Positions 15,605 to 46,427 of a stretch of 64,000 nucleotides of DNA are shown here, in pieces; position 1 is the stretch's first letter, and each line of letters begins with the position of its first letter. The position numbers and the translations under genes are program-made. The notes beneath the pieces were generated by a model. It saw only the letters and a list, made by a program, of their open reading frames with translations. It was not told the DNA's origin and ran no database searches. Origin of the DNA: Botryosphaeria dothidea (lineage: Eukaryota > Ascomycota > Dothideomycetes > Botryosphaeriales > Botryosphaeriaceae); NCBI GenBank assembly GCA_011503125.2, contig WWBZ02000001.1:4898001-4962000 (forward strand), given 5' to 3'.

Positions 15605-17680
15605 ATGTTCCTCACATTCTCAACGCCGTCGCACTCCAAAGGGCGGAGACGCGTGAGACATGCATGCGACAACTGCAGGCTGTTTCGAGTGCGCTGCAAT
15701 GGCAAAGAGCCGTGCGCGCGCTGCCAGGCGACGCCGCGCCGCTGCACCTATTCGTCCAGGAAACGACCTGCACCCAACACGCAGCCCTCCGCAACGATTG
15801 TCCCGCCGCACTCCACCGGAACCACTCCGTCTCCGCCCGCCAGTCCGGAATTCGCGTCGAGAATCAACGCCTACTTTACCTCCATCTCCGAGCTGGTTCT
15901 TCACAGCCCGCCCCTGCAGTACAGCGCCCTGAGCCAGCCCTCCTGCGATGCTCACCATCTCCAGCCCGACCTCTCTCGTGCCCAGCACGCTGCTCTCCTG
16001 CGCTTCTTCGCACGCCACCTCTATCCCGCTATCCCCGTCGTTGATCTGGCCGCCTTGAACACCGCTCACAACTCCCACCCCGACCAGCCTCTTTCGCCTC
16101 TGCACTGCGCTGCCATCGCTTTGGCTGTTCAGCATGCTTACTGCTCCTCTCTGTCGGAGCGCATGCTCGGTCTCGGCTTGTCGTCGCTGCCTGCCGGCGC
16201 CGACGCGTCACTGGCTGGCTACGAGCTCATCACCCGCTGCAGGACAACGCTCGCCGCTCGCTCGCTGGACCTTGACCCGTCCTTGTCCGACGTGCAGTGC
16301 CACTTGCTGATGTCGCTCTTTCTCATCAAGGCTGGTCATCTCAAGCCCGCCTACAACCTGCTCGGCTCTGCTGTGCGTATGGCCTACGCGCTTCACCTGC
16401 ACCGCCCTGCATCAGGTGACGATGCAGACCTCTACACCCGCGTTTGGTGGACCCTCGTTCAATTAGATCATAACTGCTCGACTCTCCTCAGACGCCCATT
16501 TGCCTTTCACTGGTCCGAGATTTCTTGCCCGATGCCCAGGAACGATCCCACCAAGAGCTACCACACCTACGTTGTTGGACTGACCGCCGCTATCTTGTCC
16601 GTCACCTGCGCCCGCAAGCGTGCACCAGCAGCCGAGGAATCCCTGACGCTCGTCGAGGCACAAGCTCAGACACTGATGAATGCACTCAGCCGCGTTCGTG
16701 AGTGGGAGCGATCCCTAATCGAGAGCAACGCTTTTTCAACCCTCAATCTCGACCCAGATATCTCCATCGCCAGCTCCGGACAAACCGAGTGCCTCTCCGT
16801 GGCTATTCAAGATGATGATAGTGGCGCTATGCGCCATCTACAAAGAAAAATGCTTCAGGTCCACTACCATAACAGCCTCATGACCTTGTACCGGTCCTTC
16901 ATCCGCTTCCCCTTCCGCTCTCTCACACCCGTGCGCAGCCCGCGCGTCGACGTCAACGCCACCATGGCTGTCAAGCACGCCCTCGCCATGACAGCTACTG
17001 TCGTCGACAGTTTCCACGCCGGCGACTTGCTGTACGGTGTGTGCGAGGTTTACCACGCGCAGTGGAACGCAGTCCTGACCATGGCCGGCTTTATTCTATC
17101 TTACCCGCTTTGCCGTTACTCACGTCTGGCACGCCAACACTTTCCTCACGCCATCGCCGTTTTTGACACGGTCGCTGGCCGGATTGCTACTGTGGGCCGC
17201 CTCGCTGTTGTTGGGCGCGATCTGTGTGGTCGCGTCGATGGCCTTGTCAAGCTGGCTGAAGAGAGCCAGAAGAGCAAGGATGGGGCGGACGCTGACCGTT
17301 ATGAGTCTCTCGGTGCTCGTCAAGTGCCGGAATCTTCCACATCCGATATGTCTAGAGAGACAACATCAACGACGGTGAATGCAGTGGGCTTGCCTCTTGC
17401 ATCATTACAAGCCCATGAAGACACGCAGGAGACAAGCCATACCGTCATGATGCCACCTCAGCAACAGCAGCAGCAGCAGCAGCAAGAGTCCCCAGCGCAA
17501 GATGGTAATACCGCTCAGGATGATCTTTTGATGGCGCCCGAGCAAGACTTGTGGAGCTGGATGGACATTATGAGCTTGCCCAGCTGGCCCGACTACCAGC
17601 ATGGCGTCGATGAACTGTTTACTGATATTACTGATTCGGATATCTTGATGGATGAGTCATGGGATGGTTTTCCTGCATAG
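15605..17680 (+). CDS. Zn2Cys6 transcription factor, candidate cluster regulator
   Basis: A single uninterrupted 691-residue frame. Residues 21-47 form a canonical binuclear zinc cluster, C-x2-C-x6-C-x5-C-x2-C-x6-C (CDNCRLFRVRC...CARC...C), preceded by a basic patch (GRRRVRHA). The middle, about 160-480, is helical and fits the fungal-specific transcription factor domain (PF04082: HLLMSLFLIKAGHLKPAYNL, then LLGSAVRMAYALHLHR, RVWWTLVQLDH). A nine-glutamine run lies near residue 620, and the acidic C-terminus with Trp and Asp (DLWSWMDIM, DSDILMDESWDGF) looks like an activation domain. It stands at the left edge of the pathway genes, next to the exporter, so pathway-specific activation is the natural inference. 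Confidence 0.9.
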   Translation: MFLTFSTPSHSKGRRRVRHACDNCRLFRVRCNGKEPCARCQATPRRCTYSSRKRPAPNTQPSATIVPPHSTGTTPSPPASPEFASRINAYFTSISELVLHSPPLQYSALSQPSCDAHHLQPDLSRAQHAALLRFFARHLYPAIPVVDLAALNTAHNSHPDQPLSPLHCAAIALAVQHAYCSSLSERMLGLGLSSLPAGADASLAGYELITRCRTTLAARSLDLDPSLSDVQCHLLMSLFLIKAGHLKPAYNLLGSAVRMAYALHLHRPASGDDADLYTRVWWTLVQLDHNCSTLLRRPFAFHWSEISCPMPRNDPTKSYHTYVVGLTAAILSVTCARKRAPAAEESLTLVEAQAQTLMNALSRVREWERSLIESNAFSTLNLDPDISIASSGQTECLSVAIQDDDSGAMRHLQRKMLQVHYHNSLMTLYRSFIRFPFRSLTPVRSPRVDVNATMAVKHALAMTATVVDSFHAGDLLYGVCEVYHAQWNAVLTMAGFILSYPLCRYSRLARQHFPHAIAVFDTVAGRIATVGRLAVVGRDLCGRVDGLVKLAEESQKSKDGADADRYESLGARQVPESSTSDMSRETTSTTVNAVGLPLASLQAHEDTQETSHTVMMPPQQQQQQQQQESPAQDGNTAQDDLLMAPEQDLWSWMDIMSLPSWPDYQHGVDELFTDITDSDILMDESWDGFPA

Positions 17681-18111
17681 TAATAACGAAGATACGCTCT
17701 ATTCTTTGAACATCAGCCCATTTTCAAGCTTTATACATCGGCTTCCTGCGGCCACAGAATCGCTCACCATATTCGGAAAGATTACCTAAGCCTCTTCTTC
17801 CATTTCAAAGCAAGAGGAGGCGAAAAGATAGCCAACAGCTGAGTAGCGAGACCGAAGAATGACGGCAACTCGAACGCGGGGCCTCGGGGCAAGACCAGCA
17901 AGACCGTCAAAACATAACCAAGGCCCCCTTAGATGTCAGAAGCTGAGGAAATCCATAACCTAAGTCCAGGCAGTTATTATCTACGCTCATTGTTCTGATA
18001 TTACATGATTCCCCACCAATCTCTCAGGTCCTTATGTTTGCCAATCCTGTCGGACGACTGTATCGAGACCTGGAGAAAAGGTCTGAATCTCTTCTTGTCT
18101 GGTGACAGGTC
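17681..18111. other. Convergent intergenic region
   Basis: The 3' ends of the Zn2Cys6 gene (plus) and the ABC transporter gene (minus) meet here. No gene is seen; transcript ends are expected. Confidence 0.5.
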
Positions 18112-21100
18112 TTACGCTTTCTTCCATTTGCGAATAAAGAGCAGGTACGTGGCTCCAAGGATCAAGACAAAATTCAATGCAATGAACCCCATGAAAATGC
18201 CCACATTATCTCCTCTATGGGAGTACGAAAATTCGTATTGTCGAATCTGCAAGACAAGGCAGGATGTTAGTCTGCATTCAAATTGACAAAAGAGAGAGAA
18301 ATGGTGCTTACGAATTCATCACCAACAGAGAACTGACAATACTCGCACTGACTAGTAGCCGAAGGGTCCAACAGGTAGCCCGTGGAGTTGGGCTGAGCGA
18401 AATACGCCGCCGCATAGTCGCCGCACGTCACGCCGTCGGGGGCAAAGAAGAGGCTCGTCTCGGCCGACGAGCAAGTGATATTCTGGTCGTGCACGGCATC
18501 GGACGCCATGCCGTCAATGAAATAGTACAGCGGCGAGACGTTGTAGATCCAGCGCCAACCGCGCGGTGTGAGCGGCGGCGGCGACAGCGGTCCGTTGAAG
18601 GTGTTGACGATGAGCCAGATGAAGCCGTTGGCCACCTGGGCGGCGGCTACCGTAGGGAAGCACGCGCTCGTGAACTGGGAGAGACCGGCCACGAAGACTG
18701 TATATAGCATGTACATGAGGAAGGCGTACGCTGCGCGTCCGGCGGCATACGGGAAGCCGACGGAGTAGTACCACAGCACCCAGTACACCACGGCGCCCAG
18801 CAGCGCCCACGGTATTTCGACGGCAGCGGCGCTGGCGAAGAATATTTGCCACCGGTAGGTGTTTGATTCCTTCTCGCGCGCAAGGAACTGGTCTCTCAGC
18901 CCGACGAAACGCGGCATGGCGGCGAGACTGATGACAGGTCCGGTGATGACGGCGACGAAGAGCGAGAAGACGTGGTTGCGCGCATCTGTGAGTGAGTGTC
19001 CCAGCTGCAGAAATGTCAGTCCGTTCATGAGCGCCATCCACAAGTTCAACTGCAGATTCCCCAGCACGTAATCCGGATCGCGCCAGTAGTTGGTGAAGGC
19101 CCGCGCCGTCACCATGCGCAGCTGCGTCCACAACGACGCCGCGTACTTGTTCGGATCCTCCTGCTCCTCCGGCATTGCCACCCCCTCTTCATCACTCGTG
19201 CCGCCAGCTTTGGAGCTCTCGCCGCTGCTGGTACCGCTCCCGCCATCACCCAACGTCCGCCGCAACTCCACACACTCCGCCGACTCCTCCCACAGCTTCG
19301 GCCAATCCACGTCCGGATGCACCGTCTCCCCCAGAAAATACTCCGCTGGATTCTCCCACCCCTCGCACCTCCGCGTATGCCTCTCAAAATACCCAATCAC
19401 ATCCCCGCACTCCTCGCCCAGCGGGCCCACGTACGCCGTCTGTCCCCCCGGCACCAGCAACACCAGCTCGTCAAACTCCCGCATCAGCTCGGCCGCGGGC
19501 TGGTGGATCGTGCACAAGACCGTCAAGCCCGCGTCGCGCGACAGCTTGCGCAGGAGGTGGACGATGCGCGCCGCGGATCCGCCGTCCAGCCCGCTGGTGG
19601 GCTCGTCGAGGAACAGGAGCACGTCCGGCCGAGCGGCCAGCTCGACGCCGATGCTGACGCGCTTGCGCTGCTCGAGCGAGAGGCCGCTGCCGGGGTGCCC
19701 GATCAGGGCGTCGGCGATGGGGTCCATTTCGAGGAGGGCGAGGATCGCGGAGACGTAAGTGTGTTTGGAGGCGGATGGGATGGATGCGGGTTGGCGTAGG
19801 GTCGCGGCGAGGAGGAGGGCTTCGCGGACGGTGGACGTGGCGAGGTGGACGTCTTGTTGGTGGACGAAGCCGGTGCGACGCTTGAAGGAGCGCGGGAGCG
19901 GAGAGGTGGTGCCGAGGTGGAGGGTGCCGGTGAGAGTGCTGCCCGACGGAGTGGCGCGTTGGGAGAGGGTGTTGAGGAGGGTGGTCTGTGGGGGTTGTCA
20001 GCGTTGGGGGGGTTTCTGTTGTGAGAAGAGGTGAAACGCACTTTGCCTGCGCCGGACATGCCCATCAGGGCGGTCATTGAGCCGGGTTTGAGGTGGCCTG
20101 TTCGGGTTGTCAGCGCTTTCCCGTGCATTGACCGGGTTTGCTGAACTCGCCTGATACGCCATGCAGCAGCCTCTTCGTACCATCCGGTGTCTTGACGTCG
20201 AGACACAGGTCCTTCCAGGAAAACGACTTCTCGCTACGGACGATCTCGGCTGGGGTAGATACCTGTGTAGTGGACGTTGGTGGTTCGGCCTTTTCGTCGT
20301 CGAAGCCAGAACTCGATTGCTGGCTCTCCTCATCCGAGACGGAGGATTTTTGCGTCGGTGTGTCGAAAGCGCTGCGGGCGAAGAAGACGGTGGCGAGCTT
20401 GCCGGCGGGGACTTTGAAGCGCTCCATTCCGATGCTAGGCCTCATGAACATTTGTTCCAATATACGCGCGCAAGAGAAGGCTTAAGGCAAAGGTAAGACT
20501 GAAGGGGATATAATAGGGACTTACGCGACGATCACAGAAAAGACGGCGAAGAAAGCAATGATGATTCCAAAGTTGCGCCACAGGTGGGCTTTGCGGAAGC
20601 CGTAGAAGGATTCGAGGTAGTTGTCGCCGATGAGACGCGTAGATCCGGGCTCGAAACCCTGTACGGCGCAGGTCTGGTAGTGGCTGTCGTTGTAGGCGGC
20701 GCCGAAGGGGACGGTGTCGAGCTCACTGCAGCGATAGCGTGATCCAGATAGTTCGTTGGAGACGATGCCCTCGAATGCGTAGTACATGGGCTGGTGAAGG
20801 TAAGTGTAAGTTTGCCTTTATTTTCCAAAACAGCTTTTGGAAGACTTACGTTCAGGTAACGGACCCAGCCCAACCACACCTTCATGCCTGTTGATGGCTG
20901 TCAGCCACATGAAACCCATTGATGAAGTCAATCCCGCCGGATTTCTTACCTGGAGCCGTGACGTAGAACCCAGTGTACAGAATCCACGCGTTTATCAGCA
21001 GCCCAACCGGCAGAATAGCCCTGGTCACCGAGGTGGTATTCACAGCAATCGCCCGAAACACCATCCCCAGCGACATCAAGCACGCATACAGCACAACAAA

Positions 21101-22932
21101 CCACGTAAAAAAAGCACCAGCATCCCTCCGGAACCCAGCCATCCAATACGTCGGCAGCTGCCACACCACCGTCAACACCTTCCACGGCGCATCCGCCAAC
21201 AATTGAGCCACGGCATACGCGCCAGGCCGATACAGCATCAGCGCGCCGTGCTTGAGCAGCACGCCGCGCTGCGCGAACGTGTTGCCATACTCGGCCGACG
21301 CCTGCAGCCCCATCACCAGCACGTTGAAGAAGAGTGCCGCGCCGCGCGTGTACAGGCTGCGCGTCGTGTCCGGCTGGTCCCAGTACAGCGTGCCGAGGAT
21401 CAGCGCCTGCAGCGTCAGGCAAATGGCCTCGGCGATCCACGGCCCCAGGTCGGTCAGGTGCACGCGGGTCTGCCGCGCGGCGCACGCGAGGACCTGGGCC
21501 GTGAGCGGGAGCGCGTACTTCGCCTGGCGAGCAGTCATGGTCCGTTGCGACGACCGCGGTTGCAGCCCGACTTCGTCCCGGACTCTCGTCCAGTGCTCGC
21601 TGCGCCGGAAAGCGGCCTCGAAATCCCCAGGCGTCCGCGGCGTCACGACCCCCTCCGTCCGAGCCACGGAAGGGCTGTCCGGGACCGACACCGCCGTCAG
21701 GTAGTCCGACAGGCTCGTCCGCGGCGGCCGCGCCAGGCCCAGCTCGTCGGCGAAGTAGGCGCTCGCTTCGCTCATCCGGCCGAAGAAGACCTGGCGCCCG
21801 CCGTTGATGACGAGGACCTTGTCGAAGAGGGCGAGCATCGCGTCGCTGGCCTGCGGTACGCTGGCTACCACCGCGGCGCGCCGCCGGGTTGCGTACGAGC
21901 GGAGCGTGCGCATCAGACGGAGGGCGGTTGCGGAGTCGAGGCCGCGGGTGGGGTTGTCGAGGGCGATGACGCTATGTTGGTGAGTTTTCTCTCTCTTTTT
22001 CTTTTCTTTGAGGGTGGTGGTGGTTGCTTACCCTGCTCGTGTGCTCAGAGTCTCGGCGACTGTGACGCGGTGCCGCTCGCCGCCGCTGACGCCGCGGTGG
22101 TAGTCGTTGCCGACGGCGGTGTTGACGGTGTGGGAGAGGCCGAAGAGCTTGAGGAGGTTGTCGAGGATGCGGTCTACCCTGCCTGCGCGGCCGGGGATGT
22201 TGGTTGGTGTGCGCGCGTTCACGGCGAAGCTGGTCGTTGGTCAGTTCCCCTTTCTCGGAAATTCGGACTGTCTCACCGGAGCGTGGTTCCAACGGAGAGC
22301 GAAGCGAAGTGGACGTCTTCTTCGCCTGGAGAAAAGAGGATTGTCGTCAGCTTCGGAGCGGGGTGAAGGTAAGGAGTTTTGGGTGGATTTTGTTTTATCT
22401 TACCCGCAAATGCGAATTCTCCTGGAAACGCCTCCTTCATCTTGACTGCGTCATCGCCTCCAACCGTTACATCTCCATTGACGGCGTGGTACTCCTGCCG
22501 CATGTTGGCCATGATCTTGAGGAACGTCGTGCATCCGCTGCCAGGAGGCCCGACGACGAGCAGCATCTCGCCGCCACGCACGGCGCCGCTGAACTTGTTC
22601 AACAGCGCTCTTGAGGGCTGCAGGCCCTGCTTGGAAAGCCATTTGGCTGGATTGAGATTTTGGAGTAGGCGGAGGGATGCGGTCGCTACTGTCGGCGCGG
22701 TTTGTGTCTGGAAGTAAAGGGATTGCTCTCAGCAAGATGTCTTCCCAGTGGTTGGAGAACTTACGCCGAAACCGGCGCCGACGACGTCCAAGTCTTTGAA
22801 GCATACGTCAAATTCGCCATCGGTGGGGTCAGGTACTCCCTCGAGAAATGCCTCGACCAGCTCATCAACTTGCTGCTCGGCGGCAGCTTGCCCTGCATGC
22901 TGCTTCTTTCCGTCAGGCTGGTTCGTCGACAT
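18112..22932 (-). CDS. PDR-type full-size ABC transporter (ABCG), probable exporter
   Basis: A multi-exon gene from ATG 22932 to TAA 18112. The order is NBD1-TMD1-NBD2-TMD2, the reverse topology of fungal pleiotropic-drug-resistance pumps in the plasma membrane. NBD1 has the PDR-specific Walker A GPPGSGCTT (Cys for Lys), signature VSGGERHRVTVAE and Walker B VIALDNPTRGLD. NBD2 has GMSGAGK, the degenerate signature LSLEQRKRVSIGVELA and LLFLDEPTSGLD. TMD1 lies at about 21500-20520 and TMD2 at about 19100-18115. The last exon (about 18112-18251) supplies the final helix, NVGIFMGFIALNFVLILGAT, and a basic KWKKA tail. Its start faces the AROM gene across a 1.27-kb shared promoter. Self-protection by exporting the cluster product is the likely role; substrates cannot be read from sequence. 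Confidence 0.92.
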
Positions 22933-29134
<6,202 letters not shown>

Positions 29135-29516
29135 TGGATGGAGATGGGAGTGAGTTGGGGAAGTGTGGGCAATTTGTTATCAAGCACTTGCGCCTGGAGT
29201 ATTTTAGTCATGGATTTGCATGAACTTGACTTGTTGGCCATTCCTGGAAGTGAATTAATAATGCTATGAAATCCCAGCAACGTGATATAGCAGATGTCAA
29301 AGCGGCTGATAGTCATCGCAATAACTGCCGCCGTCAATCCCGAATATTCGATCTCGTATCGGCTCTCCGCTCAGCGATAGTGGTCAGGGCAGCACTCGGC
29401 TCCGTTGTGGGCTGTGTATATATAGTGCCGGTTCCAGTCTCCCAGCTACTGCCTTCTCTCCACACATATTCCATCATCCGTTCTGCCTCTACAAAGGAAC
29501 AAAATCAACCTCCACG
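29135..29516 (+). promoter_or_regulatory. Prephenate dehydratase promoter with TATA box
   Basis: A TATATATA element at 29417-29424 lies 93 nt upstream of the ATG, followed by a pyrimidine-rich leader and CACGATGG start context. CGG-N4-CCG (near 29359) and CGG-N2-CCG (29397-29404) pairs are also present. Confidence 0.6.
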
Positions 29517-30504
29517 ATGGCAATTCAAGACAAGGTCGTCTTCCTCGGTCCAGAGGCATCATACACGCATCAGGTGCGTTTCTCCACCTGCCTCCCGCAT
29601 CCCTCTCGTCCAAAGAAGCAACGAAAACAAGACTCTAAGCAACCTCCCACAGGCCGCCCTCACCACCTTCCCGCCAACAACCGGCAAAACGACGCTCCAC
29701 CCCGCCACTGACATCGCCGACATCTTCCACGCCGTGCAGTCCGGCGCGGCCACCTACGGCGTCGTCCCCTTTGAAAACTCGTCCAACGGCGCCGTCGTCC
29801 CCACCTGGGACCTTCTCGCTTCCTCCTCCTTCCCGGACGTTCTCGTCTGCGGCGAGGCCTACGTCGCCGTCCGCCACGCCCTCCTCGGCCGCCGCTGCCC
29901 GGCGCAGACCAAGGCAGCCAGCGGCAACCCGTGCCTCGCGCACGTCAAGACCGTCTACTCGCACCCGCAGGCGTGGGGCCAGTGCGCCGCGTTCTTGACC
30001 GGCACGCCCGGCGTCAGGGCGGCGCGGCGGGTGGACGCGTCGTCGACGAGCGCGGCGGCGAGGATCGCTGCGGCGGATGGGGAGGGGAAGAGCGCGGCGG
30101 TGGCGAGCAAAGAGGCGGCGAAGCTGTGGGGCTTGGACGTGCTGGTCGAGGACGTGAGCGATGTGGAAGGGAACGCAACGAGGTTCTTGGTGCTGCGGCG
30201 CGGCGGCGTGCGGGTCGCGGACGTGCCGGTTGGGGCCGGGGCGGAGCGGTACGGGGCGCTGCTGGGGTTTGTGGCGGGCGAGCCGGCGGTGGTGACGGCG
30301 GCGCTGGGGGCGTTGGCGAGGAGGGGGGTTGGGGTCGTGAATGTTGGGACGCGGCCGGGCGGGGGGAAGGGCTGGGAGAGGGCTTTCTTTGTGGAGATTG
30401 TGTTGGGCGGGAGTGAGGCGGTTGAGGCGGCGTTGATGGACTTGGGGGATGTGGTGCCCGGCTGGCGGTGGCTTGGGAGCTGGGAGAGCAAGTTGGCTGC
30501 GTGA
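29517..30504 (+). CDS. pha2: Prephenate dehydratase
   Basis: Two exons (29517-29573 and 29653-30504) give 302 residues. The start VVFLGPEASYTHQ, then GVVPFENSSNGAVVPTWDLL and the catalytic Thr-Arg-Phe in GNATRFLVLRR, are diagnostic of the PDT domain. The C-terminal 80 residues (LLGFVAGEPAVVTAALGALA..., ending GWRWLGSWES) form the regulatory ACT domain that binds phenylalanine. The enzyme decarboxylates and dehydrates prephenate to phenylpyruvate. Its 3' end is 57 bp from the convergent chorismate synthase gene. In this setting it supplies the arylpyruvate that the A-T-TE enzyme at 38.9-41.8 kb is expected to dimerise. The exons are very GC-rich. Confidence 0.95.
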
Positions 30505-30561
30505 GGGGAAGCGGCACTGGTGGTACATTTGGAACTACTCGATGAATCTAGTCTTGTCTTC

Positions 30562-31884: not shown

Positions 31885-34838
<2,954 letters not shown>

Positions 34839-35342
34839 GGGGGGTGCCATCACTTGTCTTTCACATGGCTGTTATTCTTCAATGACTGATAACTGATGTC
34901 CATCCACGCATCTTCACGACCCGTTCAAGTACCGGTGCTGAAAGTTTTTGAGCCTCGGTGATACACCATCGCGGTGCTACAATGCTAGGTGAGTCTATGC
35001 TCTTGACATGGTGAATGTGAAAATGCCCAGCCAGCCCTGTACTTTGTACTTTGGACCAGTATGAGAGGCGTTGGGCGATGCAGGATTTGGGTGACGGCGG
35101 TTGCGTCACCTCTGACTCTTAGATCTTCGACTGATGGAAAAACCAAGTGACGGGCTAACCTAAAGAGGGAATCTTAACTACAAGTAGACATGGATCAAAG
35201 TTCCTCCTTGGAGTTGCTTGCACATAAAAACCCACAGATCCTCCACTCCTCGCCCATTTGGAACCCACCCGCCCTCGTTCTTTCTTGGGCCATTCCCTCC
35301 CTCTCTTCTTGGCACGCATCTCACCCTCTCTCCGATCCAGCC
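34839..35342. other. Intergenic, promoter of the deuterolysin-like gene
   Basis: No gene is seen. The last 60 bp before the ATG are pyrimidine-rich. Confidence 0.4.
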
Positions 35343-37051
35343 ATGAAGCTCCTGCTGCTTTTGCTTGCGCTGCTGACCTGCGTATCCGGTCAGCGCTGGC
35401 CATGGGACGCCGGTCCGACCCTCCAAGACGTGATTGCACGCTACTGCCAAGAGTGCATCCTTCCAGACAATCCCCACGAGTTGTTTTGTGGTATAAAATG
35501 GATGGGCGGACTCAAGGCCTCGGGACACGTCGACGACACCAACCTCACCCACTACCTCGACAACGTCACCCCGGATCGTAACGACAACTTCCAGTCCTTC
35601 CAACGCTTTGGCCTGTCGCACTCCAACGGCATCGTCAACCTCACCGAAGCCTTCCCTCCGAGTGCTCCGCTCCAGAACGTCACCGGAGCCTTCCACTGGA
35701 CTGCTCCGTTCCTCAATGTCACCGCACATGCCACCTCTGGAGATGGCAACTCGAACCAGAATCTCAGTGTCAGCCTCAAGCCACTCGGCGGCTCCAAAAT
35801 CAGGGCCACTGTCAGCAACATTGGGCCCAGCGATCGTCTCCTGTACAAGCCCAACACCGTCCTGGATAAATATCCAGTCGACAAGGTTTCCGTCTTCCGT
35901 CCTACCCGCCATTGGGAGATTGTCAACATCAGTGAACCTCTTGATTTCCTGGGGTCCTCGGGGCTGATTGCGCCCGAGTTCAGGAATGAGAGCAGATACT
36001 GGGCCCACCTCGCCAAGGGAGAGCACATCAGCGCGGACTTCGACGCTGCCGTGACGGTCTGTGAACCTCTTTTCGATTCTGACGAGCCAAGCATATGCTA
36101 ACCTTTTGCGCCCCATCGGCTAGTATAACCTGAGCAGTGGCGGCGACTTCGTAGCCCTCGCATCAGGTTACTTTTTCACAAAGGGCACCGCCGACCCCGA
36201 CGACGTGGCCCAGTGGAATTTCACCAACAGCTTCGTGCCTTTGCAAGGCGTCGATGGAAAAAAGGCCGCTCAGGCGTTAAAGGAGACGCTTGAAGATAGC
36301 CGCGTTGATGGAACCTCGGATATACGTTCTCAAACCGATGTTCTCAACCGCCGCGCCAACGTTTTGTTTGCCGGCGCCCCAGATGTGGACATTAGGATGG
36401 CTATGTCGGCGATCAGCTGGGTCCGTAGGATATCAATCGACGCTGCAATGGATGCTCTGGATACCCCGGACGACTCGCTTGGAAGCAGGTAAGATGGCAA
36501 TTGCGCTTTTGTTGAATTGCTTACCATCCTGACAACTTTACTACCAGATTCTTCGCCTATTTCAACACAGCCAGGAAAGAGAACAGGTGCCACGTTGCGA
36601 ACAAGCTCATTATGGTCGCGAAGGAAAGCATAATCACCGACCTAGTCGCCTTCGCCACTGTCGTCGTGGCCGACGATGAGAACATATGCCAAGACTGGAC
36701 CGTGTCCATCTTTTATGTTGAGACTGGCAAGGTGATCCTTTGCTCCATGTTTTTTAATTTCCCCGCCCTTGGAGACAACTGCTACGCCATGGACATGGCG
36801 GCGCAGCTCCTCCACGACTTCCTTCGCATCGACCTGGTGGCTCCTCCAGCTACCCACGACTACGAAGGGCACTTATGGCATCCTGAATGCAAGAACCTTG
36901 GCTGGGCCCAGGCTTCAGATAATGCTCAAACGTATGTTTGGTACGCCAAATGTAAGTTTTACCATTGATATGAATATGTGTTGCTATCGTTTGCGTCTAC
37001 TAACATCAACATCAATTAGCAAACTATCACGTGTGCGCATTCCCGTACTAG
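35343..37051 (+). CDS. Secreted deuterolysin-like (M35) protein with inactivated zinc site
   Basis: Four exons (35343-36056, 36124-36488, 36548-36951, 37020-37051) join in phase to 504 residues. A signal peptide (MKLLLLLLALLTCVSG) is followed by about 110 residues without recognised homology, then the beta-rich domain of deuterolysins (SVSLKPLGGSKIRATVSNIG, then VDKVSVFRP) and a full-length M35 catalytic-domain-like region (RFFAYFN, CQDW...CSMFFNFPALGDNC, AQTYVWYAK). The zinc motif HExxH is HDFLR at residues 449-453 (36813-36827), and the following GTxDY motif is ATHDYEGH. The catalytic Glu and second His are both lost, so peptidase activity is not expected. There are at least eight N-glycosylation sequons. 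It could be a decoy, carbohydrate- or peptide-binding protein. Its place in the cluster may be incidental. Confidence 0.8.
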
Positions 37052-38906
37052 GATAGGCTGATGAGGCTGCTTCTCGGAGGAGTTCGGGTCTAAAGCCCTC
37101 TCAAGGAGAGTTCAAGGGGGTAGCATCGGCGCAGAGTTGAGAACGCAAAATTGGGACAGACGAAGAAGCTTGTGGACAGACAGAGGATCTTATTATTGAT
37201 AGAGGTCTTCCTTCGATACTTGGAATTGATAATCATCATTCCTCCAATCCAAGAGTCAGAAAAGTGAAGCGAGCAACGTTGTTGAGTAAGAAGATCTGAC
37301 GTCGTCACCACCTTGTGGTCTCCGCACAGAGCGAGAAAGAAAGTTTCACTACCTACAGTAATCCCCCTCTCATTGCACGCTCAGGAGAATGACCTCCACT
37401 TCACTCGTTCAGCACCACGCATTCCCGAATTGCCAGTGACTATACGTCCATGATCCTCCGTGGCGTATTCTGCCCAGATGGCCAAGAACAAAGGAAGCTT
37501 TAGGCGTTGCTACCAAGAATTCTTGGCCTCAGTAACGACAGCGTTGAAAAAAGCGAGAAACTGCAAAGCAACTACAGCTTTGCCCGGCTTAGCGAACACT
37601 GTCTAAGCACCAAAAAGATGTGACACCTCAGGCCAGACAGCATGCCCAATCCGGGTTCTTCGGAGAGGTTCACTCCCAATCTGCAGTAGGTAAGATCCAG
37701 CGAGGACATGCGGAAAGCCTAAAATCCACCGCCGATGCAAGCCTCGCCAAGACAGCAGTGCTCGACAGGGAAGAGCACCCTGGCGTGCTCCAGATACCGA
37801 GCACCAGGTCCAGACTCCGCGCGCATGCAGGTCTTCGGTAATTTCTGACTCGCAGCACCCTCCCCCGACGATTCGGGCAAGCCATACCGACCAACACGAC
37901 GACAGGGAATGTAACCCTCAGCCCAACACGCAGGCCCTGATAGCCGTGAGCAGTCTACGGCAAAAAGAGGTCCTTATTAGTGACACTGACAATGTAGTCA
38001 TGTCGGCACGGCCCGACGCCACCCGGCCAGACCTCGTAACGCCCTCCCGTACGTAAGGTGGCGTGTCAATGGGTTGAATCCCTCGAGTCGTGCTGACTCC
38101 CCGGTCTGCTCCCAACACCGACACCTTGCTGAGCACAAGCGAGGGCAAGATAGCGCTCCGTCTCCGCACGTGCGCTATTGATACGCTGTCTCACATTACG
38201 AGGGTGGAGCTCCATGAGCGCATATTGCGTACATGCACATAGAAGTGCAGACTGACTCAGATAGCCGGGATCTTGCGTGAGGCGGAAAGATGTGCATACG
38301 GTGCGGGTCTTGCGTGCTGTGGCTTGTCTTCGTTTCTCGCGGGCGTTCCGCGTTGGTTGCATGATTCATGGAGACGCCGGGTTGTTGTGCTGTGCAGATG
38401 TGGCTTCGGAAATCCCGGAGAGGGCGCGGTGCACGACGGACGGGGAGAGGAAGGCCGAAAACGTGAATTTCTGGGTTAGTGCTCGAGGCAGAAACGCGGA
38501 CCCCCTTCTTACTTGGGAGCCAGGATGGCATCATCTTCCGATGCTGAAGGTCTGCATATCAGGTGTCTATCTGTCATGACAGGCGGATTTACTATTTTAA
38601 ACTTAAGTCTCGGTGTGGAAAGAAAAACATCTTCGCGAGCTTTACCAACCGCACGGCCATCTCATCATGAACAAGAGGGGCTGGAAGCAATCGTCGATGC
38701 ATCTGAATCTCACTCTTCTTATCTTTCCAGACAAAAAGGGCATGACTGAAGCTGAGCTCGACTCTCTCAATACATCTGCTAATAGCGCGCATAATCAAAT
38801 AACATTCAACTGGCCGATACTTGTATATAGTCTAATCGAGAATAATGAATCAAAAACAGCAAAGAAAAACAAAACTCCCAATCCCAACAAACAAAACAAT
38901 CACCAT
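37052..38906. other. Intergenic, 1.85 kb, no supported gene
   Basis: This holds the 3' regions of the deuterolysin-like gene and of the A-T-TE synthetase. Only short, low-quality frames are visible, and no repeat was found. Confidence 0.45.
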
Positions 38907-41819
38907 CTAAATACCCCTCTCAGTCAAGACCTTGCGCAGCCTATCCGCAAACCCGGCAACATACGTCGGGTTGAGCATGGTATAATGCTCGCCCTCGACA
39001 TCGTGGAACCTGACATCATCGCGCACAAAATCCTTCCAGTGGCTCAGCTTGTTCTCGACCCAATCCTGCCTATCCTTCGCCACCGCCTTGAGCGGAATGG
39101 CCACAAAGACATCCATGCACTTGATGCTGCCCGACGGCTCGTAATCGCGGGCCATGCCCTGCAGCTTGGTCGCGACGTCCGCCCAGTTGAGGTAATCGTC
39201 CTCGTCGAGGCCGAGCTCGTCCCAGCGCGCCGGGTCGGCGAGCTTGCGCATGTGCTTGACCGCGTCTTTGCGATCGGGCATGGCGCGGATCGTCGGGCAC
39301 TGGTCGAGCGCGACGTCCTGGTCGATGAGGGACACGAAGTAGAACAGGTTGGCGATGCACTCCTCCCAGTCGAGCTGGCGCATGCGGTACTTGATGTGCG
39401 GCGGCAGGTTCCAGCTGCCGCAGTAGCGCACCTCGTCGCCGAGCGCCTCGAGGCGCTTCGAGATCTCGAATGCCAGCATCGCGCCGTACGAGTAGCCGGC
39501 CAGGGCGTACGGGCCCTGCGGCTGCGTCTTCTTGATGTGCTCGACGTAGCAGGTGAGGACCTGGTCGATGGTGGTGAAAGGCTCCTCACCCTTGTTGAAG
39601 CCCTTGGCGCGCATGCCGTAGACGGGGCGGTCCGTGATGTACTTGGTTAGGTTGAGGAAGACGAGGACCTCGCCGACGCCAGGGTGGATGAGCCAGAGCG
39701 GCGTCTTGTGGCCGAAGGAGTTAAGCTTGACCACCGGGTTGTACTCGCGGTCCTCCGAGTTGACCCCGGCGATACGGCCGGCCAGGCCCTTGGCCGTGGG
39801 GTTGTTGAGGATATCAATCAGCGGGATGGGGGCTGGAAGGCTTAGGCGGGGCTTTAACCGGTTGATAACGGCGATGAGGTCCATTGAGGACGCTCCCATA
39901 GCCAGGATGGAGTCATTAACGCTGAAATCATCTTCTGCCGGAAGAGCCAGCTGGAAGCGAATCTCCTCGAGGATGATGGCCTCAGCCTCGGACTCGGGCT
40001 CACCACGGATGGTCTGGCGGTGGCGGGCAATAGCCTCATCGTTGGCGGCGATCTGCGAGCTGAACTCGCCCTTCTCCAGAGCAGCCTTGAGCTTGGCCCT
40101 GGACAGCTTGCCAAGCGTCGACTTGGGGAGCTGCTCCTTGCGCAGCGGCACAATGCGGGGGCGCGAGCGGGTGTGCATGCTGGCAATGCGGATGATGGTG
40201 CTCTGCGTATCGAAGCGGGCGGCATCGTCGATTTCGTCGAAGGTGGGCAGGTAGATGACAACGACGCACTCAGTATCCAGAGATGCATCCAGAGTCGAGA
40301 AGGCGCAGAAGTAGGTTGGGGTGGTGCCGGGGATCTCAGCCTCCTCAAGAGCGGCCTCCAGTTCGACAGGAAGGTACTTGACGCCGTTCACGATCATGAC
40401 CTCCTTGGTACGGCCACTCAAGTTCAGGAAGCCCTTGTCATCGATGAAAGCCAGGTCATCCGTCCGGAACCAGCCATCTTGGGTGAAAGCCCTTGCCGTC
40501 GCCTCGGGGTTGTTGTGATAGGCCTTAAAGACCACCTCGCCGCTCACTTCCAAGTCACCGATCTCATTAGGTCCCGCTTCGACCGTCTGGCCACCGCTGA
40601 TCAGCTTCGTCACCCGCATGCGGACGCCGGGGATGCAGGAGCCCAGAGAAGTGAACTCATAACGTTTCTCTTTGTCGTAGCTGGGGCACTGGCGATTGTA
40701 GATGCAGCCGGCACAAGTCTCAGTCATGCCGAATCCGGGGACGATGACATCCTTCCGCGCACCATACTTCTCCAGCAGCGGCTGCAGAGCAGCGCAGACC
40801 TCTGTCACGTTGCTCTCACCACCAGAACCAAACCATTCCAGGGACTCTAAGCTCAAATCAGCGTCCAGGGAGGAGGTGACGCCTGACTCAAGAGCTCTGC
40901 GCAGTCTAGCCAGATAGAAGTTGGGAGCAAAGGTACGCTGGACCTTGTGGCGACTGATGAGGTTCAACAGCTGAAGCGGGTCGACCAGTAGGTCCGCAGC
41001 CGAGATCTGTATCTGCGGGAGGCCGAGCAGAAGTGCGTGCAAGTGGATCTCAGTAAGGTTGGCAACATGATCCATGCCGATCCAGCTGAGATATGGCTTG
41101 CTAGCATGCGGCTGTGCGAATTGCGCCTTGCCATTGATGGCCGCGAGCATCTGGCCGTGGGTGAGACGAACTGCCTTCGAGTTGCCGCTGCTACCCGAAG
41201 TGAGCATAAGCGCGGCCAGATCTGAGGCAGACGGAGAAGGCAATGGCACCGCGGCTGCGGTGGGTGCTGAGGCAAGCTCCTCGACACTGAGGATGTCGAT
41301 ACGTGCCTCAGCATCCTGGACGGCGAAGGGTTCGAGAAGCGCGCGCCGGGTGAGGCAAAGCGGTTGGTCGAGGGTCTTGTAGAGGTGGGCCAGGTGCTTC
41401 TTCCGCTCCGAGACGTTGTTGCTCAGCATCGATGGTGCTGAGATGGCAGGCACAGCGCCAGCGAGGATGACAGACCAGAACCATGGGATTGCATCCACAG
41501 CGCTCTCGAAGTGGATGAGCACGATCTTTCCGGGTGCGAGAGTGATGCCTCTGCTAGCAAGACTGCTGTGGAGAGATGCGGCATTGGCTTGGGCAACTGT
41601 GAAGAGTTCAGCATAGGTGAGGGTGGTAGCGGCGCTAGAGTCGTTGATGATGCCGGGTGGGTAGGTCAGGATGCCACCAATTGACTCCTTGGCAGCTTTC
41701 TGGAGGAGGCCAACAAGGGTTGTGACGCTCTCAGAACCTGCGGTGGTCGTTTCCTTGGGGGTTTCCACCGGAACAAAGCCGGTGGGGTGCTTGACTGTGT
41801 CCTGAACAAGAGAAAGCAT
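38907..41819 (-). CDS. NRPS-like A-T-TE synthetase (aryl-pyruvate dimerising, quinone/furanone type)
   Basis: One uninterrupted 970-residue frame. Adenylation domain about 30-580: LTSGSSGNSKAVRLTHGQM (207-225), WIGMDHVANLTEIHLHAL, GFGMTET (362-368), GWFRTDD (449-455), GRTKEVMIVNGVKYLPVELE, and Lys571 in LPKSTLGKLSR. Thiolation domain about 610-680, with the phosphopantetheine Ser in MGASSMDLI. Thioesterase about 705-965, with the nucleophile in AGYSYGAM (Ser777) and the His in GEHYTMLNP (945). There is no condensation domain. Length and layout are those of the atromentin (AtrA/MicA), didemethylasterriquinone (TdiA) and phenguignardic acid synthetase family, which adenylate aryl pyruvates and couple two of them. 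The adjacent prephenate dehydratase suggests phenylpyruvate as substrate. The coupling chemistry (terphenylquinone, furanone or dioxolanone) cannot be read from the motifs. Confidence 0.93.
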   Translation of the reverse strand: MLSLVQDTVKHPTGFVPVETPKETTTAGSESVTTLVGLLQKAAKESIGGILTYPPGIINDSSAATTLTYAELFTVAQANAASLHSSLASRGITLAPGKIVLIHFESAVDAIPWFWSVILAGAVPAISAPSMLSNNVSERKKHLAHLYKTLDQPLCLTRRALLEPFAVQDAEARIDILSVEELASAPTAAAVPLPSPSASDLAALMLTSGSSGNSKAVRLTHGQMLAAINGKAQFAQPHASKPYLSWIGMDHVANLTEIHLHALLLGLPQIQISAADLLVDPLQLLNLISRHKVQRTFAPNFYLARLRRALESGVTSSLDADLSLESLEWFGSGGESNVTEVCAALQPLLEKYGARKDVIVPGFGMTETCAGCIYNRQCPSYDKEKRYEFTSLGSCIPGVRMRVTKLISGGQTVEAGPNEIGDLEVSGEVVFKAYHNNPEATARAFTQDGWFRTDDLAFIDDKGFLNLSGRTKEVMIVNGVKYLPVELEAALEEAEIPGTTPTYFCAFSTLDASLDTECVVVIYLPTFDEIDDAARFDTQSTIIRIASMHTRSRPRIVPLRKEQLPKSTLGKLSRAKLKAALEKGEFSSQIAANDEAIARHRQTIRGEPESEAEAIILEEIRFQLALPAEDDFSVNDSILAMGASSMDLIAVINRLKPRLSLPAPIPLIDILNNPTAKGLAGRIAGVNSEDREYNPVVKLNSFGHKTPLWLIHPGVGEVLVFLNLTKYITDRPVYGMRAKGFNKGEEPFTTIDQVLTCYVEHIKKTQPQGPYALAGYSYGAMLAFEISKRLEALGDEVRYCGSWNLPPHIKYRMRQLDWEECIANLFYFVSLIDQDVALDQCPTIRAMPDRKDAVKHMRKLADPARWDELGLDEDDYLNWADVATKLQGMARDYEPSGSIKCMDVFVAIPLKAVAKDRQDWVENKLSHWKDFVRDDVRFHDVEGEHYTMLNPTYVAGFADRLRKVLTERGI

Positions 41820-43183
41820 GATTCTGAGAGTGTTTCTGCCCTTGGTTGGATTCTGGGGGATTGAGGGAGCTCAACGAGGCTGTTTATATACAATAATCTG
41901 GAAGCTACATTTTGAGTATCTTGATGATAGAGTCCGTATTTCGCAGATACATTGGAGCTATGAGGCTGCTGGTGTTCCATTTTCCAGACTGTCATCGTCA
42001 GCAAAACGGACATGGCCTACATTGTCGAGCAGCTCGTGTGAAGTCTTTTCCCGTATGCTCGAGTCAAAGATGAGTGTCTACTTCCAGTGACCTACGGGTT
42101 AACACTGAATGCAAACGCGATACCGGTAGGCGGGGAAGATCAGGTCCATTGCCGCTTCCCACGTGCTATCATGGCGATTAGGCGGTCTATCATTGCAATC
42201 AGCTCCGAGGAGCTGGTAGAAGCATGATTGAAACAGGGGCCGAAGCAATCGACGGGAGGAGGCTATACGGAGAAGAGTGGGATATAGGAAGGGGCGGGCC
42301 CATCATCCTCGTAACGGGCTACAAGATTGCGCTTAGCCAATGAGGCAAGGGCCATTCGTCATGGCTGGGGCCTTGAGTCGGCAGGGCGGGATTCCGCGAT
42401 GCGGCTGAGAGGGCTGATTCATGGTGCAGGAATGCCCAAGCCAGAATTTGAAGCTTGTCAGTGCTTTGCAGCGTGTAAGCACGCCAAGGATCAATGGAGG
42501 TAACAGCAAGCGAGGTGCCCGGTGGTCGATCTCCCGGAACTCTCCCGGGGCTCATTACGGGTTGGAAGAGTGTGGCAACGTTCAGCAAGCGAATTCAGAA
42601 GCACGTCTCAGTTGAGGCGGCCGTGCAAAGGTGCACGATGGTAGTGCGAGCGAGGCTCGGTGTCGGTAGCGGCGGTTGAGCTCAGAGTGCGCGATGAAGG
42701 ACGGGGGAGGAGTTGCAAGAGCTGGACTCGACGTCGCAGGTAGGTGCACACGGACGCAGACGGGCCGAAGCCCGGGCAAAATTGGCAACGGGCCGACCAG
42801 CCAATCGCGCGGCGCCACCCTTCCCTAACGTAAATTGCTTTTTCCACCGTGGGCAGGCACGCAGAATGTAGGCGGACGGCTTCGAACAGCGAGTCAGCCA
42901 TTGCACCTGCAATACTGCACAGGCACAACTCAAGCACAAACCTCGCTCTCGGCCTCCCCCGCGGCCCGAACACGCGGACCCCCGAGCCCGCGTCGCCCGA
43001 TCCCTTCGACTCCGCAAGGACCATGGCCATTCTGCTGATAGTTAAAGGACCCCGAGGATCGCGAAGAGTACGACGACTTCTGCCCGGATCACGGGCCGAG
43101 GATCTTCACTATCGCCACCTCGCATGTCACCGCCGCACAGCCTCTCACGACTTCTCAGAGCGAACCGCCTCCCCAAGACCCTG
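41820..43183. promoter_or_regulatory. Bidirectional promoter, A-T-TE synthetase and MDR oxidoreductase
   Basis: 1.36 kb between divergent starts. A near-perfect dyad CAGCTCC-GA-GGAGCTG lies at 42201-42216. Two CCCGG steps (near 42533 and 42545) are also present. A plus-strand stretch at about 42900-43180 looks partly coding in shifting frames but was not resolved into a gene. Confidence 0.4.
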
Positions 43184-44104
43184 ATGAAGCAAGCCCAAGT
43201 CGCCGCCTGGGGCCAGCCGCCCAAGTGCGTGCAGGTGCCCTCCCCCGCCGCGCCGTCCGCCGACCATGTGCAGATAAACGTGCTCGCCGCCGGCCTGCAC
43301 AACCTCGTGCGCGCCAGGGCCGCCGGCACCCACTACAGCGCCAAGACCCTGCCACACGTCCCGGGTAGCGACGGCGTGGGGACACGCGGTCCCGACGGAA
43401 AACTGGTCTACTTCTCGTCCATGACTCCGAGCGGCGGCTCCATGACCGAGCTCATCAACGTGCCGGTTGGCGCCGCCACGCTCGTACCCGACGGCGCCGA
43501 TCCCATCCAGGTCGCCGGCCTCGTCAATCCCGTCATGGCCAGCTGGATGGCGCTGGCGACGCGCACGTCCAACCTGCCTCCATCCTTCACCGCCGTCATC
43601 ATGGGCGCCACCACCGTCTCCGGCACGGCGGCCATCTCGGTGGCCCGCGCGTTCGGCGCAGGCAGAGTCGTTGGAGCGGCGCGGCCGTCGGAGAGGCTGA
43701 GCGCTCTCCCGCTCGACGCCGTGATCGAGCTGCGGGATGCGCAGACGGACTACGCGTCTGCCCTGGACGCGGACGTCATTCTCGACTTCCTGTACGGCCC
43801 GCCTGTCCTGCGGCTGTTCCAGGCGCTGAAGCCGACGAAGCCTGTGCAGTACGTGCAGATCGGGACGCTGGCGGACCGGACCATCGACTTCCCCGGTGAT
43901 ATCCTCAGGAGCAAAGATATTACTATACGTGGATCAGGGCCGGGTGCGTGGCAGATGAAGCAGTTTGCTGAGCAGTGTCCCAAGGTCGTCGAGGCGATTG
44001 CGAACGGCAGTATCGCGCCGCTGAACTTTCGGAAGGTGAGCCTCGATGACGTTGAGAAAATCTGGGATAGGAAAGGAGAGGAGAGGATTGTTGTTGTGCC
44101 TTGA
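43184..44104 (+). CDS. MDR-family NAD(P)H-dependent oxidoreductase (quinone/enoyl reductase type)
   Basis: 306 residues from ATG 43184, without introns. An in-frame ATG at 43124 would add 20 residues. The N-terminal GroES-like part (VQINVLAAGLHNLVRARAAG, LPHVPGSDGVG) and the Rossmann part (AVIMGATTVSGTAAISVARA, then FGAGRVVGAARPSERL) identify a medium-chain dehydrogenase/reductase. The catalytic and structural zinc cysteines of true alcohol dehydrogenases are absent, as in quinone oxidoreductases and enoyl reductases. It is divergently paired with the A-T-TE synthetase, so it is the best candidate tailoring enzyme, for example reducing a terphenylquinone or a side-chain double bond. The substrate is an inference. 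Confidence 0.85.
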   Translation: MKQAQVAAWGQPPKCVQVPSPAAPSADHVQINVLAAGLHNLVRARAAGTHYSAKTLPHVPGSDGVGTRGPDGKLVYFSSMTPSGGSMTELINVPVGAATLVPDGADPIQVAGLVNPVMASWMALATRTSNLPPSFTAVIMGATTVSGTAAISVARAFGAGRVVGAARPSERLSALPLDAVIELRDAQTDYASALDADVILDFLYGPPVLRLFQALKPTKPVQYVQIGTLADRTIDFPGDILRSKDITIRGSGPGAWQMKQFAEQCPKVVEAIANGSIAPLNFRKVSLDDVEKIWDRKGEERIVVVP

Positions 44105-44490
44105 ATACCACTCTTCTATTTTTATCCCTCCATACGTAGTCTAGCAGTGTCTGCTCCTCTGTATACCGGGTTTGCACGGCTCACAATTCTTTCCTGTTTC
44201 TCTTTCAGCAGTTGTGTCCATCCTCTCAGCGGATCTCTACAATAGAAGAAAATATCATGTTGCTTATATTACTCCAACATGCGGCTATTAAGCCATAGTC
44301 GGAATAGATGTTTCTTGAACTAAATGAACTAATAAGGAGATGTGGAAAAGGGCGAAGTAATCAAGGAAATCAGCTATCCACGTTGATATCATAATTGGGC
44401 AGTCCCCATACGCCGGTGCGACAAGAATGAAAATGCGCGAGAGGGAACGACCAACAAAGGAAAAAAGACAAAGAGCGTGAGGAGCTCCAC
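44105..44490. other. Convergent intergenic region
   Basis: AT-richer DNA between the 3' ends of the MDR gene and the 557-residue hypothetical gene. No gene is seen. Confidence 0.5.
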
Positions 44491-46427
44491 TCATACAAGA
44501 TTTGAATACCACTCATCCAACTGAATCGCCAATCCCGTAAGCGGGCTACCCAGCTCCAAATCCCAGGACCCGTCAGTCAGGCTCGCCGCACTGCTTGTGG
44601 GCGCGGACTGTGAGGTGTCCGAGGCGCAGCTGCTGTCCCCGCCAGCGATGGGCCTTGGATATGCGTGTATTGCGGGGCCCTTGCGGGGATTGAAGCTGAA
44701 GGAGTTTCTCCAGTGTCCATTCTCGGCGATGTCTGTGGGACTTTGTCAGCGGTGACCGTGGCGTATGTGTCTAAGATACTCCTTACCTAATTGCGCTTCT
44801 TCGCCTTCTACGATCATGTCTTGTAGGGGTTTCATCTCGCTTCCAAACCCCTCAGAGAAAGCCAGAGGTTTGTATCTGATTGCCTTATTTATGGTATCGA
44901 TGCTGGAACACACAGTCAGCAATGAGCTGCTTTCAAACTCAGGGTAGTTTAACGGACTCGAGATTTGGCAAATACTCCTTGATGATGTTTTGCGGCCGAG
45001 CAGTCAATACAGGCCACTCTGCCGGAACAGCAGTAACAAATTTCTTGCAAATATGTTCCACCGCACCAAGTCTCTTGATACCACCGAACCGACACACGGT
45101 TCGGATGTAATGGTAATTCGACGCCGCTGAAATGACTTAGTATATTCGAAGCATCCTCGGAGCCGGAGAACTTACCAAAGATACAGTAGATGAGTTTGGA
45201 TGCCACTTCGGCGCCGTGCATCTGCTCTGCTGAGGAAACGAGCTGATTGATGAAGATGGTCTCGTCGCGGAGTGATTTCAGCGTTCTGGATGTGCCCTCG
45301 AAGCCAGCTTCTCTCATCCGCATGTTGACCTGACGCAACGTCAGTGATTTGTCAGACAAACATTCGCCGCTACGGAACCCACCTCTCGGGCGCTCGCCTT
45401 GCCAGTCTTGGTGGAGAAGTTCTCCCAGATGAGGAAGAAGCATAGTGAGATAAAGCGGATGAATCGAGTATGTCCAAAATACTGATTCGCCTGTCTGGCG
45501 CCTGCGGAGCAAAGCTCCCATGCCTTGACAGCGTATTGCTCAGGTTCGTCTTGGTCCATGCGTGACGTCTGAATCGGCAAGCAGAAGGATGAGGTGGCAA
45601 TTCTAGAGACCTCGATGTTGGGTATCGAGTCCAAAAACTTATCCGCAACTAGGATTGCAGCTTCGCTGTTGAGATTGCATGGGTCAATCTGCAGTGAAGC
45701 AGGCTCGCCGCATTCACGTGCGGCTTGTTCGGTCTTCTTGGCTCCACAAACGGACTGCCGTTTTCTGCGTTGGCGAGGAGCGCTCTCTGTATTTGTAGGA
45801 AACAGATAGGGCGCAAAATCTAAGGACTGGCTGTCGCCCATGACAGAGTCTGGGTACCAGGGTCTTGGTGTTGGGAGCGGGCTGGTGGCGAGCACATTGC
45901 TGTTGTAGTCATCCATGAGTTTCTCGAGGTAGTCAAGCGACCTTTGCGAGCAACTTTCCGCTGGGGAAACATTTTCCCAGCCGAGTTGCAAATGTTCCCT
46001 GATTCGGTGTCAGCAAGGCAAGTAAGAAAGAACACGATGGATGGCTTTACCAGCAGCTTGAGGTTTTGAAATTCCAGTAGTGGTTACGGACGCAGAATTC
46101 ATAAATGGTCTGCGCAGCATCACAAATCGCTGATATGAAATCGCAAGGCTGGAGATCTGGACAGCACGGCGCGTACACTCCGCGAGCGTAGTAGAACACT
46201 TGATCCCGGTGTCCAGCAAGACAGAAAGGAACAACCGAAATCTGGACCGCAAGGAAGTGCACGTCCCAGAAGGGCACTTGGAAATAGAGGTAACATGATT
46301 CGCTCGGAGAATTAACGTATAGTTCGGTATTTCGAGGGTCCAGATCGTCGAGGGTCAAGTAAAGAACATTGTGAGATATTCTCCGAGACATTGTCGACGC
46401 ACCAAGTGGATTTCTGCTGCATGCCAT
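44491..46427 (-). CDS. Unrecognised 557-residue protein, six exons
   Basis: Exons 46427-46051, 45998-45383, 45329-45176, 45126-44958, 44902-44787 and 44732-44491 join in phase to 557 residues with introns of 49-55 nt, so it is a real spliced gene. The donor of the fourth intron (GTCCGT) is the weakest. The protein has no signal peptide, a basic patch (RQRRKRQSVCGAKK) near 200, a helical middle (SLRDETIFINQLVSSAEQMH) and a Ser/Ala-rich C-terminus ending LAIQLDEWYSNLV. No zinc cluster, bHLH or catalytic motif was found. It lies beside the MDR and A-T-TE genes and could be a second regulator or an unknown enzyme. No function is assigned. Confidence 0.7.

Follow-up and report, generated by a model that had tools for sequence, protein, structure and literature searches.

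A fungal gene cluster that probably joins an A-T-TE synthetase to a phenylpyruvate supply of its own

What does a fungus gain from extra copies of nearly the whole shikimate pathway kept side by side at one place in its genome? The question is raised by the stretch G000:C1:4898001-4962000 (below, the window, i.e., the whole 64,000 nucleotides analysed) of a fungal genome of 51.7 Mb in 78 contigs, in which genes were called from Pfam and NCBIfam profile matches on the window frames and from gene models. It carries a second AROM gene (24204..29074, + strand, exons 24204-24812 and 24938-29074, 1581 amino acids (aa); Pfam and NCBIfam matches, gene model, and tree), a second prephenate dehydratase (PDT) gene (29517..30504, +, exons 29517-29573 and 29653-30504, 302 aa; PF00800, gene model, and alignment), a second chorismate synthase (CS) gene (30562..31884, −, exons 31850-31884, 31426-31787, and 30565-31361 plus stop, 398 aa; PF01264 match in the own-genome search, TIGR00033 at 432 bits), and a third gene for 3-deoxy-D-arabino-heptulosonate 7-phosphate synthase (DAHPS; 33502..34838, +, four exons, 381 aa; PF00793, TIGR00034 at 537 bits, and gene model). 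The four span 10.6 kb (24,204-34,838), in agreement with an earlier reading of the letters alone (below, the sequence-only reading), which had put them within 11 kb. Farther along lies a gene for an NRPS-like synthetase of the adenylation–thiolation–thioesterase (A-T-TE) type (38907..41819, −, single exon, 970 aa; AMP-binding, PP-binding, and Thioesterase domains), and in the models of all five genes every frame is open. The answer that we consider probable is that the cluster comprises the A-T-TE synthetase together with a phenylpyruvate supply dedicated to it.

The window copies are not the sole shikimate genes of this genome, a state of affairs that would have told against the sequence-only reading; all four families are represented at other loci. 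Own-genome searches beyond the window located five such loci, namely AROM on contig C36 (=C78), CS at 3.27 Mb on C1, PDT on C58, and DAHPS on C29 and on C3 (=C12); the models are complete for AROM and CS, lack a short stretch for PDT, and lack the first exons for both DAHPS. Contig C3 matches C12, and C36 matches C78, at 100% identity along some 10 kb; each pair hence represents one locus, the 51.7 Mb assembly being partly redundant. That the window copies are themselves assembly duplicates is ruled out, since longer DNA pieces are ~71-81% identical to the other copies, with pieces of 30-47 bases reaching up to 97%. At the protein level the window and the other copies share 65% (AROM), 83% (CS), and 44% (PDT) identity, while the window DAHPS is nearest to the C3/C12 isoenzyme (77%, as against 64% for the other copy), and in AROM, PDT, and CS the first intron lies at the same position in both sets. 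The genome's other AROM is 91% identical to the AROMs of Neofusicoccum and Lasiodiplodia, and its other PDT is closest to a PDT of Macrophomina phaseolina (89%), which places the fungus in the Botryosphaeriaceae. By a rough estimate, the chance that four extra copies share one 11-kb stretch of ~50 Mb is below 1e-9.

Judging from its sequence, the second AROM is an old paralogue. Its domain order is complete (DHQ synthase N and C, EPSP synthase, shikimate kinase, type I dehydroquinase, and shikimate dehydrogenase). In a column test on 118 rows (the genome's other copy and 117 further listed homologues, one of 118 having been dropped for its length), it retains 423 of the 434 near-invariant columns, comprising 116/121 in DHQ synthase, 175/178 in EPSP synthase, 28/28 in shikimate kinase, 52/52 in dehydroquinase, and 52/55 in shikimate dehydrogenase. 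The cluster-type AROM of M. phaseolina (P0122, strain MS6, 79% identity) retains 421/434; by this measure the cluster AROMs drift faster, yet no domain is broken. At residues 1316-1317, within shikimate dehydrogenase, a near-invariant His-Asn is replaced by Phe-Asp in the window and by Phe-Gln in Macrophomina. In a tree of 32 rows (LG+G4) the window copy groups with a 97% relative and the copy of Macrophomina, with 100/100 support and on a long stem (0.41). This clade is sister to eight other Botryosphaeriales AROMs, the housekeeping ones, including those of Aplosporella and Phyllosticta; support is 97/96 for the eight and 100/99 for all 11 together. Such a topology implies either that the duplication took place before those families diverged and the copy was lost in other lineages, or that it came from an unsampled relative. 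A bacterial origin is ruled out by the common intron positions and by this tree.

In the second PDT the two domains have fared unequally. Of 118 listed PDTs, 110 remained as the reference after filtering by length, with columns taken at 95% and 90% conservation. At ≥95%, the window PDT keeps 52 of 54 catalytic columns and 15 of 30 in the ACT domain, the other 15 being changed, and the cluster-type PDT of M. phaseolina (P0242, strain unspecified in the record; 65% identity, with another PDT there at 44%) keeps 49/54 and 18/30 (12 changed). At 90%, ACT changes number 17/39 in the window protein and 14/39 in the Macrophomina one, while 104 of the 110 references have at most two. Both domains drift, then, ACT far more, and a generally faster rate of change accounts for some of what is seen. 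In the accessible text of PMC10845154, GALV and ESRP are given as ligand-binding motifs of the PDT ACT domain and TRF as the catalytic triad. The stretch aligned with GALV is replaced in both cluster-type PDTs (PGAL to PAVV or PERV) and that aligned with ESRP is altered in both (GTRP or VTRP, where other fungal PDTs have NTRP); TRF is retained in both. The window PDT also scores 152 bits with the Pfam PDT profile, above the cut-off. Erosion of ACT along with retention of the catalytic part is what a phenylpyruvate supply freed from feedback would be expected to show, and it is natural to suppose from these alignments that the cluster PDT may have been released from phenylalanine feedback. In the PDT tree (33 rows) the stem is very long (2.13), the copy is placed beside Bipolaris with an uncertain position, and a topology that unites it with the remaining Botryosphaeriales PDTs in one clade is not rejected (p-AU 0.097).

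Two stretches of the third DAHPS bear on its type or its regulation. The FLSVTK stretch matches that of the C3 isoenzyme, which is taken for the Phe type, and the Ser of FLSVTK we take to be a marker of Phe-type DAHPS. The N-terminal EDWRI stretch, which in AroG of E. coli is linked to the effector site, reads IDSRI in the window copy, a change only suggestive of altered feedback.

The synthetase has A, T, and TE domains and no C domain (Pfam matches being AMP-binding, PP-binding, and Thioesterase only), with the T-domain Ser (GASSMDL), the TE nucleophile (GYSYG, fitting GxSxG), and the His (EHYTML) present. It was compared with the best 120 of 1366 homologues, many of them without an organism name; this scope applies to all homologue counts for the synthetase below. 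Position 1 of its specificity code (DHVAN) is Val, as in 120/120 homologues, and this residue is described in the accessible part of PMC10316625 as a mark of keto-acid-activating enzymes. One relative is 99% identical and the next best 59%, and a quick tree (109/121 rows) puts the synthetase on a long branch of its own, at an unresolved fork with P0004 and a 48-row clade. The genome also encodes a second A-T-TE, 37% identical to that of the window, found with the same score at G000:C36:254589-256433 and C69:2570744-2572588, whose match holds one internal TAG, possibly within an intron.

Beside the synthetase lies a gene for an MDR-superfamily reductase, a candidate quinone reductase (43103..44104, +, start approximate), with ADH_zinc_N under the curated cut-off and TIGR02824 (quinone oxidoreductase) at 48 bits, far under its cut-off. 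It calls to mind TdiC, the quinone reductase of the terrequinone cluster (PMC12105029), an analogy that would fit a quinone product. On the left flank are a Zn2Cys6 transcription factor with a Fungal_trans domain, a candidate pathway regulator (15605..17680, +; PF00172 and PF04082 above cut-off), and a PDR-type ABC transporter, a candidate exporter (18112..22930, −; multi-exon and unspliced, ends approximate), recognised by ABC_tran, two ABC2_membrane stretches, and open frames. The flanking genes named in the sequence-only reading are accordingly borne out by Pfam for the factor, the pump, and the synthetase, and by sub-cut-off matches only for the reductase.

The bidirectional promoters that it had proposed exist in part. 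Three pairs are divergent: the pump and AROM, 1.27 kb apart, CS and DAHPS, 1.6 kb apart, and the synthetase and the reductase, about 1.2 kb apart, while AROM and PDT stand in tandem and PDT and CS are convergent. The word CGGGCCGA, chosen only after all words had been counted, has seven occurrences in the window where 3.3 would be expected (4/100 shuffles reach seven), and four of the seven occurrences lie in the three divergent promoters (23626, 32317, 42761, and 42789). The CGG-N-CCG spacings checked gave nothing convincing.

Between DAHPS and the synthetase there is an M35 deuterolysin-type protease gene (35341..37053, +, ends approximate), with PF02102/PF14521 above cut-off at 36516-36965 and below it at 35178-36098; its product looks secreted and is probably outside the pathway. 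The sequence-only reading had omitted this gene at 35.3-37.0 kb. At the right edge of the region lies an uncharacterised multi-exon gene (44500..46427, −), which gave no Pfam match with single frames to E 0.01 or with hand-joined frames to E 0.05. The recognisable genes beyond 15.6-46.4 kb are unrelated (a sodium/calcium exchanger, a cysteine synthase-like enzyme, condensin Cnd3, HET, aldolase II, and NUDIX_2), and many open frames there are without any profile match. The cysteine synthase-like enzyme, dependent on pyridoxal phosphate, is encoded just outside the cluster (49538-50548, −; NF007989, 464 bits).

Macrophomina has both the cluster-type AROM and the cluster-type PDT, a co-occurrence that holds at the species level, from protein records, and among the 120 matches listed for each protein no further named row is nearer than 65% (AROM) or 47% (PDT). 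This distribution would suit a supply module that may be paired with different partners in different lineages.

Taken together, the 15.6-44.1 kb region would be a secondary-metabolite cluster with a supply line of its own. Chorismate would be made by the cluster DAHPS (step 1), AROM (steps 2-6), and CS (step 7) and converted to prephenate by the single housekeeping chorismate mutase, after which the cluster PDT would yield phenylpyruvate without the usual phenylalanine brake. The A-T-TE synthetase would condense two aryl pyruvates, most likely phenylpyruvate, the MDR enzyme would reduce the resulting quinone-type dimer, the PDR pump would export the product, and the Zn2Cys6 factor would turn the set on. 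The enzyme activities, the loss of feedback, the synthetase as consumer, and co-regulation are what we infer from the proteins and their arrangement, as are the product class and what the reductase, the pump, and the factor do. We consider it likely that the four copies serve as a dedicated supply of phenylpyruvate and, given such a supply, about as likely that the A-T-TE consumes it; the two together are probable.

Several observations weigh against this reading. Searches with TIGR01802 and PF01817 found no chorismate mutase in the cluster and one copy in the genome, on C2, so the cluster has steps 1-7 and the conversion of prephenate to phenylpyruvate and borrows the mutase. The window DAHPS retains the residues matching D154, Q159, and K222 of yeast Aro3, the known feedback residues of DAHPS according to the accessible text of PMC10349828, so its feedback may persist, and a release of this enzyme is unsupported at the known positions. 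In PDT, at 90% conservation, one reference protein (P0304) has 13 ACT changes, the reference maximum, and catalytic changes amount to 7/75 in the window and 13/75 in Macrophomina (7/110 references reach seven, the maximum being 11); the window PDT, the only copy scored in this way, also falls under the NCBIfam PDT cut-offs (147 vs 219 bits). The cluster AROMs have 11 and 13 near-invariant changes, as against 0-2 in five printed control rows. The word CGGGCCGA is weak evidence for a common regulator site, and ~4 kb with the protease gene separate DAHPS from the synthetase.

Two further points of this kind concern the synthetase. Its code position 5 is, by alignment placing, Phe, whereas Ile or Val is found in phenylpyruvate enzymes and Asn in 4-hydroxyphenylpyruvate enzymes, the position contributing to specificity without being a strict determinant (PMC10316625, in its accessible part). 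Phe occurs there in two homologues (P0001 and P0004), the others having Leu (77), Ile (34), Val (3), Met (2), Cys (1), or a gap (1), and the substrate assignment consequently rests mainly on the neighbouring PDT. Secondly, no Macrophomina name appears among the synthetase homologues, the coverage of which does not establish absence from Macrophomina. The dedicated supply for the synthetase claimed in the sequence-only reading is thus strengthened by the intact copies, the old AROM, and the eroded ACT domain of PDT, and weakened by position 5 and by the missing Macrophomina name.

The same missing name, set beside the AROM and PDT types that Macrophomina does have, is what would be expected if the supply genes and the synthetase were adjacent but separate units, an old module of regulator, pump, AROM, PDT, CS, and DAHPS serving another product, beside which the A-T-TE and the reductase arrived in this lineage. 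The protease gene between the two blocks and the long own branch of an A-T-TE without an annotated close relative (the next at 59%) point the same way. We nevertheless judge this arrangement unlikely, as an A-T-TE enzyme is just the kind of consumer to need such a supply, and DAHPS-plus-A-T-TE pairs occur in other fungi. Ordinary redundancy, in which linked extra isoenzymes serve bulk aromatic amino acids unconnected to secondary metabolism, would agree with the apparent catalytic intactness of all four proteins, as read from their sequences; it is made improbable by the fast evolution of the paralogues (stems of 0.41 for AROM and 2.13 for PDT), by cluster types seen, among the 120 matches listed for each, only in this lineage and Macrophomina, and by the eroded ACT domain with a pump, a regulator, and an A-T-TE at the same place. 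Self-resistance to a product inhibiting the shikimate pathway, a role discussed as possible for ApmC of the asperphenamate cluster (PMC12616698, accessible text), is very improbable here, since one insensitive target suffices, whereas seven shikimate steps and PDT are duplicated, and just 11/434 near-invariant AROM columns are altered.

Beyond the supply of the A-T-TE synthetase, it is conceivable, and put forward here tentatively, that the supply genes are a cassette assembled in early Botryosphaeriales, feedback-released at PDT and couplable to different core enzymes, perhaps with the A-T-TE as partner here and another in Macrophomina. If the dedicated supply is real, it would show that selection is able to bring copies of an entire pathway of primary metabolism, chorismate mutase excepted, together at a locus of secondary metabolism. 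The cluster makes the feedback release of such copies and the combination of supply and assembly modules testable, and it directs attention to a metabolite not yet characterised, in a family to which plant pathogens belong.

Fungal clusters that carry a single gene for precursor supply are known. We know of no further shikimate genes in the clusters with ApmC or AMT16, the latter presumably belonging to the AM-toxin cluster. AMT16 is named as a DAHPS in the accessible text of PMC10491840, and the apm (asperphenamate) cluster resembles the window in having an extra DAHPS homologue, ApmC (PMC12616698). No fungal cluster with AROM, CS, or PDT was found among the matches listed (8 to 20 per search) from the openly licensed PMC literature, and one may be described elsewhere. 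In their accessible text, PMC5566483 (dioxolanones of Guignardia), PMC8336260 (Botryosphaeriaceae clusters, the word shikimate being absent), and PMC13065033 (neither DAHP nor shikimate occurring) contain none. The housekeeping AROM and the Aro2-, Aro3/4-, and Pha2-type enzymes belong to the same families as the window copies, with the same domains and the same place of the first intron (AROM, PDT, and CS), but the window copies are clustered and divergent, with the regulatory domain of PDT eroded.

The tdi cluster of Aspergillus nidulans (terrequinone A) likewise has an A-T-TE, the quinone reductase TdiC, and a keto-acid supply of its own, which differs in being one aminotransferase acting from tryptophan and not the shikimate pathway (PMC12105029, accessible text). 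In two other clusters, as in the window, a regulator, an A-T-TE, and a DAHPS share one neighbourhood. The acy cluster of Ascocoryne sarcoides (ascocorynin) has an A-T-TE synthetase making polyporic acid from phenylpyruvate, a Zn-binding transcription factor, and a clustered DAHPS, with regulator, DAHPS, and synthetase co-expressed; it differs in that DAHPS is its sole shikimate gene, chorismate and prephenate being absent from the accessible text of PMC9047271. The alf cluster of Allantophomopsis lycopodina (allantofuranone) comprises the A-T-TE AlfA, the DAHPS AlfS, a regulator, and a dehydrogenase, differing in that DAHPS is the sole shikimate gene in the six-gene table of PMC12105029 and in a methyltransferase and a ring-cleavage dioxygenase (accessible text of the same paper), neither of them seen in the window cluster. 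The view of the sequence-only reading, that no fungal cluster with such a set is known, therefore falls for DAHPS alone, published for both clusters, whereas for the near-complete pathway no report was found among the openly licensed PMC papers listed. By analogy the window cluster would extend the acy/alf arrangement to almost the whole pathway.

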